Shown here: piece after piece, positions 18,458 to 34,859 of the stretch | Numbering within the stretch: position 1 is the first letter of the stretch | How the letters are laid out: each line of letters opens with the position of its first letter | Source of the DNA: a virus | Length of the DNA stretch: 37,292 nt | Virus record (IMG/VR): IMGVR_UViG_3300035171_000007 | Span: 1-37,292 of that record | Strand: one strand, 5' to 3' | Made by a program: the position numbers and the translations under genes | The notes under the pieces: model-generated | Told to the model about the DNA's origin: nothing | What the model saw: the letters and a program-made list of their open reading frames with translations, nothing else | The model's database searches: none

Positions 18458-18564
18458 CAGACCCGAGGATCTTCCCACGAATTCAATTTTAATGATATCC
18501 CTATCACTATCGCCAGCGTCATGAGCTGCATAGTATAAAATCCAAAGATCATCCATCCCGGCAT
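18457..18564 (-). CDS. Tiny membrane protein (35 aa)
   Basis: The frame is MPGWMIFGFYTMQLMTLAIVIGISLK followed by a short polar tail: a single membrane helix. GGAG lies upstream of the ATG at 18564. A second in-frame ATG at 18552 overlaps the exonuclease stop (ATGA) and could equally be used. Its stop touches the palindrome at 18440-18457. Confidence 0.5.
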   Translation of the reverse strand: MPGWMIFGFYTMQLMTLAIVIGISLKLNSWEDPRV

Positions 18565-19406
18565 GTTATTCTCCATGATTCTGTCGGTTTCTTTCTGTAT
18601 CCATCCAAATCAAGTCCCTGCAAGACGTCGATGGAGGAATAATCCACGGAACCTTTTCGCATATATCTAGTAACCTGGACACCATTACCCCGTACACTTT
18701 TACCCCCAGCTTGATCAATGAGTCTCTGCTTAAGGGCTTCTTCTTCTTTTTCATATTTCTCCCTGAGGGCCTTCATATTTGCATATTCAAAGGCCGTTTG
18801 CTTCCATTCTAACGAATTCATTTCTGTGAAGTCACGGTCTGTTAAGGGAGGAGGATCAAAGTTCTGGAGTCTATTCCAGAATTCAGCCTCTTCGCGGTAA
18901 ATCGTGTCGATATAGTCGTTATTCCTCTCGATCTCAAGCACGATACCAGTAGACCCGTCAAAACAGAAGTAGAAAATACTTTGCAGCCCCGCTACTGCCA
19001 TTTGATGTTGAAGCTGGGCGTTGTAGTGTTCAGGGACTTTGCCGGCCATAGCGAGCTTATAAGTGGCCTCACCTGGCACTTTAATCTCTACCGCTGATTT
19101 ACCATCCTCGCTAACGCCATCCATACTAGCCATCATGTACTTAACCTCAGGATGAAACAAGACCTGCGGAGTCATCTTTATTCCCGTGACCTTCTCGAAT
19201 TCTTCCCTAGCATAGGGCTCCATTTCCTTACCGCGTCTCATCGCTGAATTCTCTACTGTCTTAACCAATCCGAGCTTTTCCTCGAAAAGGTCATAAGGTG
19301 TCTGAAAAGGGGATAATCGTAAGATTGTTCCTGCTTCTGAGGCACCTATATGATTCCGGCGCATTTTCAGCCAGGCTTCCGTGCCCTGTATAAGTTCTTC
19401 TTTCAT
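18549..19406 (-). CDS. YqaJ-family (lambda-exonuclease-like) recombination nuclease
   Basis: The 285-residue protein has the full PD-(D/E)XK signature of the YqaJ family. It shows GASEAG (21-26), RRGKEMEPYARE (57-68), the catalytic Asp96 in MMASMDG, the E-x-K pair Glu107/Lys109 in AVEIKV, and the HYNAQLQHQM helix (127-136). It should degrade one strand of linear DNA 5'-3' to make single-stranded tails for the RecT protein encoded two genes upstream. A helical C-terminal part with EKEEEALKQRL follows. It overlaps its neighbours by 4 bp (19403-19406) and 16 bp (18549-18564). It belongs to the early leftward operon and is typical of phages that replicate through recombination intermediates. Confidence 0.9.
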   Translation of the reverse strand: MKEELIQGTEAWLKMRRNHIGASEAGTILRLSPFQTPYDLFEEKLGLVKTVENSAMRRGKEMEPYAREEFEKVTGIKMTPQVLFHPEVKYMMASMDGVSEDGKSAVEIKVPGEATYKLAMAGKVPEHYNAQLQHQMAVAGLQSIFYFCFDGSTGIVLEIERNNDYIDTIYREEAEFWNRLQNFDPPPLTDRDFTEMNSLEWKQTAFEYANMKALREKYEKEEEALKQRLIDQAGGKSVRGNGVQVTRYMRKGSVDYSSIDVLQGLDLDGYRKKPTESWRITCRDG

Positions 19407-19603
19407 TTTTGCTTCCCTGCTAATTCTATGAATTTAAAATATAAGTCATCAGTGCGCCTTTCTTGCGCTTGAAGTCTTTGTTCCATCCTTGCATCGATCT
19501 TGTCGATCTGTACATGCAGGTATAAAACACCTGCGAGCACAGAACCGACTATGACGAACAAATCGAATATGTGAATCACAACATCCTTTTTGTTATCACT
19601 CAC
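19403..19603 (-). CDS. Small membrane protein between RecT and exonuclease (66 aa)
   Basis: It has an N-terminal membrane segment (VVIHIFDLFVIVGSVLAGVLYL) and a charged helical tail (IDKIDARMEQRLQAQERRTDDLYFKFIELAGKQK). The tail matches that of the protein at 8058-8234, so it is a paralogue located in a different operon. It overlaps RecT by 8 bp and the exonuclease by 4 bp, which implies co-translation with the recombination pair. A membrane-tethering role is speculative. Confidence 0.6.
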   Translation of the reverse strand: MSDNKKDVVIHIFDLFVIVGSVLAGVLYLHVQIDKIDARMEQRLQAQERRTDDLYFKFIELAGKQK

Positions 19604-20375
19604 TTGCCACCTCTTCCTGAGTTTCCTTCTTAAGCTCTTCCTGCATTTCTTCGAGTTTCTTGCTAACTCTCTCGTGCGTCTGATTGTAGAGTCCTAATGG
19701 GATCTTATCATCGACCAGACCGTGCTTATTCAGGAAGTCAATGACCTTGTTCTGATAATCCGCTGGAGTCCGTCCTATCATGTGTAGTAACTCATGAATA
19801 GCTTCTACAGAGGCCATTTCCTCGACGACTTCAGCATCTCCAGTTTTTAAATCCTTTTCCGAATCAACGATTTCATGAATCTCGTCAGGAGTGTAACCCA
19901 TTCCCATGATAATATCTGGATATAACTGGCGGGCTAACATACTCATAGCTCTGTTGTAAATCATGATTTCTTGAATTTTGTCATACATGTTTTTCTTCAA
20001 TCCGGCAGTTTTGGCATCATCAACACTATATCGAATTGTCCATGTATCTCCATTGTCAGCACGTTTCCCATGTAAAATACAGATATCTTTAGTCGATTTA
20101 GAATCTTTTATAATACTATGGCCCTTTCTACGGATCAAAGCTGCCATAAGCTCTGTATACATGCCAACTTTTCCCTGCAAAAAGTAAAAACCTTTGTTAA
20201 GACCAATAAGCGGATCGATACCTAATGCTTTTGACATGCGGATAATCGTAAAAATCCCTTCTTTCGTTAAAGTTTGATAATGTTTAGTGGCCATCAACAT
20301 CTCTGCTGCCTGTCTATCACTTTCAATTTCAGACAGGAAACTGTTGTTCTCTCTAATCGATAATTCTTTGCTCAT
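19596..20375 (-). CDS. recT: RecT-family single-strand annealing protein
   Basis: The 259-residue protein carries the RecT core: SKALGIDPLIGLNKGFYFLQGKVGMYTELMAALIRRKGHS (about residues 48-87) and a TWTIRYSVDDAKTAGL..MIYNRAMSMLARQLYPDI segment. RecT proteins coat single strands and anneal them to complementary DNA, working with an exonuclease; here that is the YqaJ protein at 18549. The C-terminus is acidic and Glu-rich. The gene has a GAGG ribosome binding site. Two hairpins lie in the leader between it and the upstream gene. Confidence 0.9.
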   Translation of the reverse strand: MSKELSIRENNSFLSEIESDRQAAEMLMATKHYQTLTKEGIFTIIRMSKALGIDPLIGLNKGFYFLQGKVGMYTELMAALIRRKGHSIIKDSKSTKDICILHGKRADNGDTWTIRYSVDDAKTAGLKKNMYDKIQEIMIYNRAMSMLARQLYPDIIMGMGYTPDEIHEIVDSEKDLKTGDAEVVEEMASVEAIHELLHMIGRTPADYQNKVIDFLNKHGLVDDKIPLGLYNQTHERVSKKLEEMQEELKKETQEEVASE

Positions 20376-32771: not shown

Positions 32772-33200
32772 ATGACAGTTTCAATAACCAGTATGCCTCC
32801 GCAAATTCAGCAGAGGTATAACGCTAAGCTCTTGTCGACTCCAGAACGTAATTTGGTGCATATGCTTTTCGCAACACCAGTTGAACTTCCGGATAACCAA
32901 GGCTTTATCGATAGACAGTCACGTTATGACCGTCTAGATCTATTCCCTGTGCCTCTCGATGACGCCCAGGTCAATCCCCCGTCACAACAATTGAATCGTG
33001 TTGATGTTGACTGTAGAGTCAGGGTCTACGCGACTTACATCGTTTTGACCCGTCAAGTCACGATCACGAACGAAGATCCTGTCCTTAATAGCGCTGCAGC
33101 CCGTTTGGGTCAGGCGATGAGGGAGACTCAGGATTCTTTGGTTAGAGATAGTTTGGAAAGCTCCGCTTCTGTAGTAAACGCAGTAGGAGGCTCAAACGGT
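32772..33200 (+). CDS. Major capsid protein, N4-gp56 type, exon 1 (143 aa)
   Basis: The exon encodes MTVSITSMPPQIQQRYNAKLL, then the R-YDRLDLFPVPLDDAQVNPPSQQLNRVDVD..YATYIVLTRQVTITNEDPVLNSAAARLGQAMRETQDSLVRDSLESSASVVNAVGGSNG segment. That segment follows the N-terminal half of the N4-gp56 capsid family closely. It ends exactly with Gly143 (GGT at 33198-33200), where a group I intron begins. Joined to exon 2 the protein is 315 residues, a normal length. Without splicing, reading continues 18 codons into the intron and stops at 33257, giving a truncated protein. This is the main shell subunit. Confidence 0.9.
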
Positions 33201-33392
33201 AGATATGTTGCCGTTTTAAAATCAGACCTAATTGACTTAGAACTCCTCGCTGCGTGAGCAGACGGACGATAAGGCGGAACCCGAAAGGGACCGTGACAGA
33301 CTAAGGCGGTCAGACACTAGAAATAGTGAAGCGATAGTCGAAACTCATAGGAGACTATGAGAGGTGGCAGAAATGACCACCCGCTTAAATAG

Positions 33393-34286
33393 TTAAACAC
33401 CTTTGCGATTTAAAAGATGAACTTTATGGAAAATCAAATCACGTTGGGAAAGGATAGCAGAATACAATTCTGTGAAATGGTAGCTTTTTCTATCTCCTCC
33501 GTTCAAAATTGTGGTCTCGTAAAAGTTAATCAATTCTTCAGCGACAGGTTTTTTGTATTTGATATATTTAATCAATTTTGGAAGGACTTTAGCAAGGCGT
33601 TTGGAAGATATTCTCCAAGAAAGTTGATCATTATGTTTGTTGTTTTGTTCTTTTCTTTTTACAAGACGAAGACAACCACCAAATCTTTGCATCAACCAAC
33701 TGAAAACTGGCCATTTTGTATTATTGCAATGAAGATAAATTTTATAAAGAAAATTTGGTCTTTTGGGATCTTTACTTCTAGCAATTCCCAAGCTGCATTC
33801 TGCATCAATAAAACCAGCCAGGTAAGCATAATCAGTAGAAGAACATTCTTTAGTTTGAGACATTTTTTTGAATTCATCAACTTGCATTTGAAAAACAAGA
33901 TTTTGATGATTTTTGATTTGTTTCATTTCTTCAAACAAAAGCTGTCGTCCGGATTTGGAAGATGTTTTGAAATAATTCATGAAAAGAATAGCTTCATCTC
34001 GTTTTTCGACAAGATAAGGAAAAACTTCTTTGAATATTTCAATATTCTTGTTCTCCAAAATAAAATGGTATTGTGGCTTATGGGTGCTAATTTTATTTCC
34101 ACTCAATCTTACAACTCCTCCAAATATTTCTTTAAAAAAATACAAAATATTTGTGTCTGTCGAAGAAAGAATAAATTTGGCTTGATATTTAATATGGCCG
34201 GTATTCATTTCCTGTCTTCGGACATGAAAACAACCGTCTCCATCTATATATCCAGCACAATATGCAAGTATGTGTTTCTCAATCAT
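33393..34286 (-). CDS. Double-motif LAGLIDADG homing endonuclease, antisense in the intron (297 aa)
   Basis: Two LAGLIDADG motifs are present: YCAGYIDGDG (residues 9-18) and YLAGFIDAEC (155-164), about 145 residues apart, as in monomeric enzymes. In the second the final catalytic acid is Glu in place of Asp. Each motif is followed by a beta-rich DNA-binding half (KYQAKFILSS, YKIYLHCNN). It would cut intron-less capsid alleles and drive intron transfer. The gene runs against the intron and capsid gene, so it needs its own leftward transcript. A 6-5-6 palindrome overlaps its start codon (34286-34302), and no good ribosome binding site is seen. Confidence 0.88.
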   Translation of the reverse strand: MIEKHILAYCAGYIDGDGCFHVRRQEMNTGHIKYQAKFILSSTDTNILYFFKEIFGGVVRLSGNKISTHKPQYHFILENKNIEIFKEVFPYLVEKRDEAILFMNYFKTSSKSGRQLLFEEMKQIKNHQNLVFQMQVDEFKKMSQTKECSSTDYAYLAGFIDAECSLGIARSKDPKRPNFLYKIYLHCNNTKWPVFSWLMQRFGGCLRLVKRKEQNNKHNDQLSWRISSKRLAKVLPKLIKYIKYKKPVAEELINFYETTILNGGDRKSYHFTELYSAILSQRDLIFHKVHLLNRKGV

Positions 34287-34302
34287 GTTAAGAATTTTAA
34301 CA
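34286..34302. promoter_or_regulatory. Palindrome at the endonuclease start and intron 3' end
   Basis: TGTTAA-GAATT-TTAACA is a perfect 6-5-6 inverted repeat overlapping the minus-strand start codon. On the plus strand an alternative hairpin AACATT-TTTG-AATGTT (34299-34314) overlaps it. It could hide the endonuclease start or form a P9.2-like stem of the intron. Confidence 0.5.
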
Positions 34303-34340
34303 TTTTTGAATGTTTAAGTCATCAAAAAAGTAATAGATTG

Positions 34341-34859
34341 GACCTACCAACAGAAATGGCCCTTAGTGATACTGACGATATTGTTACTCTATTGCAGAAT
34401 AACAGTGCAGAATATATCACTAACATGATCCCAGGTGAATTGAAGATTGGTACTAGCCCCATTGGCGATGCCTATGGTTGTATGTTGACCACAAGAATGA
34501 TTCCTGTGCTTAACAACCTCCAAGGTTTCGTTCGTAAGTTCCAGTATCCGAACATTAGCGAAACTCTCCAGTCAGAATGGGGTGGTGTGAATAACATCCG
34601 CTTCTTCGTATCTGAACAGGGTTCCGTTTCACCAAATGCTTCTCTAGCTGGTAACGATGTGGCTAACTGCTTCGTTTCTGCTAAAGAGGCTTATAAAGTT
34701 GTTTGGCAGAGCGGTGGTAAGGCAAGATTTATTTACCTGCCTCCAGGGTATAACAACGACCCATGTATGCTTCGGCATACTGCCGGATGTTCCTTCTATC
34801 AAGGAAGTTGCATCACGAATGACCTTTGGATTCAAAACCTACGCTCAACCGGCATATAA
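34341..34859 (+). CDS. Major capsid protein, exon 2 (172 aa)
   Basis: The exon starts at GAC 34341 (DLPTEMALSDTDDIVTLLQ) and contains the family's IPGELKIGTSPIGDAYG, FVRKFQYPNIS..LQSEWGGVNNIRFFVSEQG and KEAYKVVW segments. These are the C-terminal half of N4-gp56-type capsid proteins. An ATG at 34355 could start a fragment, but no ribosome binding site is near it. The open frame upstream (33417-34340) is intron sequence antisense to the endonuclease and not part of the protein. The exon is in frame with exon 1 only after removal of the 1140-bp intron (380 codons, so phase is kept). Confidence 0.9.
   Translation, partial: DLPTEMALSDTDDIVTLLQNNSAEYITNMIPGELKIGTSPIGDAYGCMLTTRMIPVLNNLQGFVRKFQYPNISETLQSEWGGVNNIRFFVSEQGSVSPNASLAGNDVANCFVSAKEAYKVVWQSGGKARFIYLPPGYNNDPCMLRHTAGCSFYQGSCITNDLWIQNLRSTGI

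Follow-up and report, generated by a model that had tools for sequence, protein, structure and literature searches.

Evidence for a group I intron with an antisense LAGLIDADG endonuclease gene and a selected open sense frame in a phage major capsid gene

The window, i.e., the whole stretch of viral DNA analysed here (37,292 nucleotides), contains a major capsid gene in two exons separated by an insert with the anatomy of a group I intron. The opposite strand of this insert carries a gene for a LAGLIDADG homing endonuclease, across which one frame of the capsid strand is free of stop codons. The features of the locus are as follows, with the basis of their assignment in brackets.

32772-33200, plus strand: capsid exon 1, codons 1-143, 3' end AAACGGU (sequence, empty-site relatives, TIGR04387 on the spliced product)
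33201-34340, plus strand: group I intron, 1140 nt, phase 0, between codons 143 and 144 (empty-site relatives, same-site introns in L083, L084 and L099, covariance model match)
33194-33216, plus strand: P1, 7 bp, exon AAACGGU (33194-33200) with IGS GCCGUUU (33210-33216), U.G at the 5' splice site (sequence)
33218-33342, plus strand: catalytic core P3-P8 (helices assigned from family covariation)
33225-28/33308-11, plus strand: P3 (family covariation)
33236-39/33270-73, plus strand: P4 (family covariation)
33250-53/33258-61, plus strand: P5 (family covariation)
33255-33257, plus strand: in-frame UGA in the P5 loop, terminating unspliced exon 1 translation (position shared with L083 and L084)
33274-77/33291-94, plus strand: P6 (family covariation)
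C33297 (A bulge) GACUA/UAGUC-G33340, plus strand: P7 (family covariation)
33315-19/33324-28, plus strand: P8 (family covariation)
33344-33361, plus strand: P9 hairpin (fold, sequence)
33363-33381, plus strand: P9.1 hairpin (fold, sequence)
33393-34286, minus strand: LAGLIDADG homing endonuclease gene (P0001), 297 aa, antisense to the capsid gene and 3' of the core, in the P9 region (Pfam, profile)
33417-34859, plus strand: sense-strand ORF of 480 aa, sharing the frame of exon 2 and the codon register of the antisense endonuclease (arrangement also present in L084, at 404-1927, and in some 40 diverged clusters)
34341-34859, plus strand: capsid exon 2, codons 144-315 and stop (sequence, empty-site relatives)

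Elsewhere in the window, at 18549-20375 on the minus strand, a lambda-exonuclease family protein (NCBIfam TIGR03033) adjoins a 259-aa protein that has no family match and can only be guessed to be a RecT-like annealing protein; these two are the main minus-strand genes apart from the endonuclease.

Joining position 33200 to 34341 yields a single 948-nt ORF (315 aa plus stop) whose junction reads ...SNG/DLPTE..., and the spliced product is an N4-gp56 family major capsid protein (NCBIfam TIGR04387, 118.6 bits with a cutoff of 60, positions 5-307), with a PHROGs match to the major head protein (E 3e-22). Uninterrupted homologues of the joined protein, 80-90% identical and essentially full length, are present at 80 IMG/VR loci. 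In nucleotide alignments across the joined exons the next codon exactly at the junction is GAY (Asp) in 75 of these loci, the other five being too diverged for alignment over the junction. Both the N4-gp56 assignment and the join restoring NG-DLPTE had been proposed in the original prediction, and both are borne out by the TIGR04387 match, the restored ORF and its uninterrupted relatives. An independent contig from a different sample is identical to the window over 4003 bases, intron included. Translation of the unspliced RNA would end at 33255-33257 after 161 aa, and production of the shell protein only after splicing is therefore compatible with the sequence, as an inference made in the absence of RNA data.

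The intron begins with AGATATGTTGCCGTTT, and its IGS, GCCGTTT, starts nine bases inside it (33210-33216). The P1 pairing is likewise present in L083, L084 and L099, and the last intron base is G34340; both the 7-bp P1 (AAACGGU/GCCGUUU, with U.G) and the terminal G had been called correctly in the original prediction. A possible P10, read from the sequence only, would comprise no more than 3 bp (GUU at 33207-33209 with GAC of exon 2). The first P7 pair is C-G in the window as against A-U, G-C or U-A in the family, with a bulged base between C-G and GACU, and such a bulged base beside the first P7 pair resembles known guanosine-binding sites. The fold of the 5' core was better than that of all of 200 dinucleotide shuffles (z -3.3).

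Rfam scans gave no usable match to the window intron and also missed other members of its family, RF00028 reaching only 12.5 bits on the window (gathering threshold 50). This miss is a detection limit of the general model and not the absence of a defining structural feature. Since Rfam gave no usable match, a family covariance model was built from an alignment of 45 cores from other introns, from which the window, L083 and L084 were left out. It gave a single match in the window, at 33218-33342 on the plus strand (76.1 bits, E=1.3e-15), and so the covariance search proposed in the original prediction succeeds with the family-built model and fails with the standard one. In the 45-core alignment 97.7% of cells are paired and both sides change in 21 of 31 pairs, supporting P3, P4, P5, P6, P7 and P8. 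Double-change cells number 214, the shuffles giving 56, and the covariation collapses once partners are shifted by a single column; none of 500 shuffles scored as high as the alignment on four of five covariation measures. The presence of a group I intron within the capsid gene is thus strongly supported by splice-site anatomy, by intronless relatives and relatives with an intron at the same site, and by covariation, splicing itself remaining inferred.

A sequence pattern of the P7-P8 region led to the same-site introns of two related capsid genes, L083 and L084, of which that in L083 is short and lacks an endonuclease gene. A second pattern retrieved at least about 120 loci, the majority with introns of the window's kind. 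Among 241 loci with complete capsid genes, intron-size gaps are absent in 80, with one gap in 94, two in 49, three in 14 and four in 4. These counts are not natural frequencies, as 80 of the loci were selected for being the best matches without interruption, and the others were reached via introns or endonucleases. The gaps are distributed over the length of the gene, with the window's site (143/144) among the common ones, and the capsid gene is an intron hot spot. Multi-intron N4-gp56 capsid genes, with up to four introns at many sites, include L083, L084, L103, L241, L242, L250 and L291; L084 has three capsid introns, and at least three are present in L083. The exon 1 frame of the window extends 18 codons into the intron, and the stop site is identical in the same-site introns of the window, L083 and L084 (...LAA followed by the stop). 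Capsid relatives in bacterial assemblies were limited to two contigs of about 40 kb, L365 and L366, binned as Verrucomicrobia and Acidobacteria and too weak a basis for naming a host; the capsid match in L366 exceeds the protein length, and there is probably an intron there too.

The endonuclease ORF (33393-34286, minus strand) is the sole endonuclease ORF inside the window intron. It carries two LAGLIDADG motifs, AYCAGYIDGDG and YLAGFIDAEC (Pfam PF00961, E=2e-14, 54.7 bits with a cutoff of 23.1, in two stretches), and a profile of P0001 and two homologues matches I-MsoI, I-CreI and I-OnuI chains. Neither the intron nor the endonuclease had a BLAST match among phage records. Among relatives found by protein similarity, LAGLIDADG genes lying between capsid exons are antisense in 103 of 106 cases and sense in three. 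HNH-type endonuclease genes adjoining the same kind of introns (L034, L083, L084, L130 and L141) are, unlike the LAGLIDADG genes, all in sense orientation. A gene on the opposite strand needs a separate antisense transcript; promoter-like (sigma-70-like) sites upstream of the antisense genes were found at chance level only. That the locus combines a group I intron with an antisense endonuclease is practically certain. The original prediction was right in placing a group I intron in the capsid gene but stopped short, missing both the antisense endonuclease and the open sense frame.

This sense frame is stop-free from 33414 to 34856, i.e., through the whole endonuclease gene and then exon 2. The codon registers of the two strands are aligned, and a sense stop therefore corresponds to a TTA, CTA or TCA codon of the endonuclease. 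Such reverse-stop codons account for only one of its 47 Leu/Ser codons, at 33411, just outside the sense ORF, and for none of 46 in the L084 endonuclease, which is 46% identical. In 20,000 recodings of the endonuclease, with codon usage taken from related sense endonucleases or from window genes, 16-18 reverse stops were expected and the minimum was 3 (1 observed), and the longest open run was 232 codons against 291 observed. The codons ATA, GTA, ACA, CCA and AAA are freely used in the same gene, and the remaining two sense frames across it contain 18 and 22 stops. Explanations by codon usage, composition or tRNAs are ruled out by same-genome controls and by these two other frames. It is highly probable that the open sense frame has been selected.

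The same signature recurs in relatives, for which test loci were gathered by protein similarity alone and not by the open-frame property. The counts of TTA, CTA and TCA are 85 of 2843 (3%) in the 103 antisense capsid-intron LAGLIDADG genes and 28 of 70 (40%) in the three sense ones. With clustering at 60% identity, the frame is open over 80% or more in 40 of 44 clusters and over 90% or more in 32. A first set, sorted by the open-frame property itself and hence illustrative only, gave reverse-stop fractions of 11/537 in 23 open-frame genes (last 25 positions excluded), 54/113 in six antisense exceptions and 130/381 in sense or free-standing relatives. In the endonuclease tree the majority of open-frame endonucleases form one broad LAGLIDADG clade; L169b, from a distant clade, has 0/33 reverse-stop codons, and L188, inside the open clade, has 9/15. 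The six antisense endonucleases without an open frame (L097, L101, L117a, L188, L194 and L296) lie mostly near capsid residues 87-94, and one capsid gene, L117, holds both an open-frame and a non-open antisense endonuclease. Rho-avoiding sense strands were considered as a reason for the six exceptions and rejected, as the exceptions are if anything more pyrimidine-rich.

What the open frame does was approached through its product, its phase and its start. Identity of the sense peptides between relatives is about that expected from synonymous-codon shuffles (mean z 0.43 for 109 long-gene pairs and 0.55 for 106 short-gene pairs); a coding function of the peptide is thus unsupported, conservation over the 215 pairs being no higher than the endonuclease imposes. 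The frame is in phase with exon 2 in 22 of 41 clusters (one third expected, p=0.006) and with exon 1 in 11 of 41, the chance level. It is open through into exon 2 in only 14 of the 41, and about half of the clusters are out of phase with that exon, on which grounds a general role of the frame in fusing the sense ORF with exon 2 was rejected. The best ribosome-binding-like start within the first 35 codons has a median of -5.4 kcal/mol as against -2.3 in control windows farther along the same frames (p=2e-11). The signal is weak for the window's own start (-3.3 kcal/mol). The start codons overlie conserved His codons of the endonuclease C-terminus, and the start signal is thus partly shared with the overlapping gene. 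Openness selected without selection on sequence suggests the passage of ribosomes. In E. coli and B. subtilis, antisense RNA that is not translated is suppressed by Rho (PMC13323073). Ribosome entry into an intron core normally hinders splicing (PMC3073962); passage would therefore have to occur rarely, at set times or within the loop only. The exon 1 frame of the window terminates in the P5 loop (33255-33257), upstream of most of the core.

The explanation that we favour is that an uncultured tailed phage carries a mobile group I intron in its major capsid gene. As inferred from its anatomy, the intron RNA would excise itself from the capsid pre-mRNA, and the endonuclease, as inferred from its family, would cut intronless capsid alleles, leading to the intron being copied in. 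The endonuclease would be made from its own antisense transcript, and the capsid pre-mRNA, crossing the endonuclease gene backwards, would constitute a long antisense RNA able to pair with the endonuclease mRNA. Ribosomes are proposed to initiate in the intron loop and then to move along the sense strand, the peptide being irrelevant. Their occupancy could shield nascent unspliced capsid RNA from Rho (the host and its Rho being unknown) or from RNase acting on the sense:antisense duplex. That translation is the reason for the open frame is considered likely, though without ribosome data, and protection from Rho or from duplex cleavage as its benefit is a tentative inference, slightly short of evenly balanced. 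The explanation as a whole—a sense strand translated for passage and not for product, probably shielding the capsid pre-mRNA—is held with moderate confidence only, in the absence of RNA, ribosome or protein data.

Four other readings have to be weighed against translation for passage. If the frame merely followed from the codon usage, the composition or the shared descent of the endonucleases in an otherwise ordinary mobile group I intron, the concentration of open-frame endonucleases in mostly one broad LAGLIDADG clade would be accounted for, but the bias persists at 45% identity, where synonymous sites are saturated, and TTA, CTA and TCA are freely used in sense-oriented endonucleases and in the same phages' other genes. 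Descent also fails to predict the open state of L169b in a distant clade (0/33) or its loss in L188 within the open clade (9/15), nor would it limit openness to one of three sense frames, and this reading is very unlikely. Selection on the product of the sense ORF itself, including read-through to exon 2, could be argued from the window and L084, in both of which the ORF stays open and shares the exon 2 frame, and from the enrichment of exon 2 phase across clusters (22/41, p=0.006). It is nevertheless considered unlikely, given that sense-peptide conservation stays within the level imposed by the endonuclease (mean z 0.43 and 0.55), that about half of the clusters are out of exon 2 phase and that only 14 of 41 reach exon 2.

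Ribosomes entering the intron might also delay or block splicing at times and so tune capsid output, the open frame then acting as a splicing regulator. Inhibition of splicing by ribosomes that enter the core is known (PMC3073962), and 14 of 41 clusters are open into exon 2, but such regulation needs a frame that reaches the core or exon 2, which is mostly so only by chance distance, and would be costly for the most expressed late gene; it appears improbable. That the insert is not spliced at all, the capsid being made as two pieces or the contig being misassembled, is hardly credible. It draws only on the lack of RNA data and on the failure of RF00028 to detect the insert, and it is contradicted by the identical 4 kb contig from a second sample, by introns at the same site in L083, L084 and L099 (one of them without an endonuclease), by strong family covariation and the model match, and by the exact restoration of a conserved protein on joining.

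In the capsid introns of this common phage group, LAGLIDADG genes are as a rule antisense, and a signature of the opposite strand being kept translatable is replicated among them. Under the preferred reading, translation of the sense strand for passage, they would offer a clear example of long overlapping frames kept for the passage of ribosomes and not for a product, and a single reporter could be used to test how intron mobility genes, transcription-translation coupling and splicing come into conflict. The chances are about even that widespread phage introns have met the transcription problem of an antisense endonuclease with a content-free, codon-aligned frame, started within the intron and selected only for passage. 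There is also a warning for gene finding, as annotation would turn the 480-aa ORF into a protein and these introns escape Rfam.

Capsid introns, several of them in one gene, and antisense endonuclease genes are each known separately. The combination of a phage group I intron, an antisense LAGLIDADG gene and a selected content-free open frame was not found described in the open-access literature, which is no proof of priority. Group I introns in capsid genes are known from gp13 of mycobacteriophage LittleE (PMC11855218) and from crAss-like Zeta and Delta phages, whose capsid gene can be in up to five pieces (PMC7886860). The likeness lies in the presence of self-splicing introns in major capsid genes, which in some phages contain several of them and here contain 0-4, at many sites; the present cases differ in their N4-gp56 capsid, their genomes of about 38 kb and their intron family. 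Neither an antisense endonuclease nor a guarded sense frame was found described for the LittleE or crAss-like capsid introns in the open-access literature.

Antisense endonuclease genes in group I introns were found described, within the same open-access scope, for nuclear rDNA only (PMC9548176), and the word antisense is absent from two reviews (PMC3984707 and PMC11878797). The nuclear rDNA introns with I-DirII and I-DsqI (PMC9548176) share with the window intron an endonuclease gene opposite the ribozyme strand, in a peripheral loop and with a separate antisense transcript, the gene in the Didymium squamulosum L2066 intron lying antisense in P9.2 (PMC9548176). However, they reside in eukaryotic rRNA genes, encode His-Cys endonucleases and have an untranslated host RNA, whereas the window intron has a LAGLIDADG gene, lies in a phage protein gene and shows a selected open frame on the ribozyme strand; it thus does not meet the criterion of the nuclear class (a His-Cys endonuclease in rDNA). 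ShiLan in phage methylase genes (PMC11855218) is similar in having a hidden endonuclease gene across which the host-gene reading is stop-free, but is a same-strand HNH gene in another frame, without an intron and with the insert translated within the host protein, while the window endonuclease is on the opposite strand, inside a group I intron. Finally, the T4 td intron with I-TevI is also a mobile group I intron of a phage; its endonuclease gene likewise sits in a peripheral loop, and translation and splicing are in conflict there (PMC3073962). In T4 td, however, a GIY-YIG gene lies on the sense strand with its ribosome-binding site hidden, in contrast with the window, where the endonuclease gene is antisense and the sense strand has an open frame of its own.
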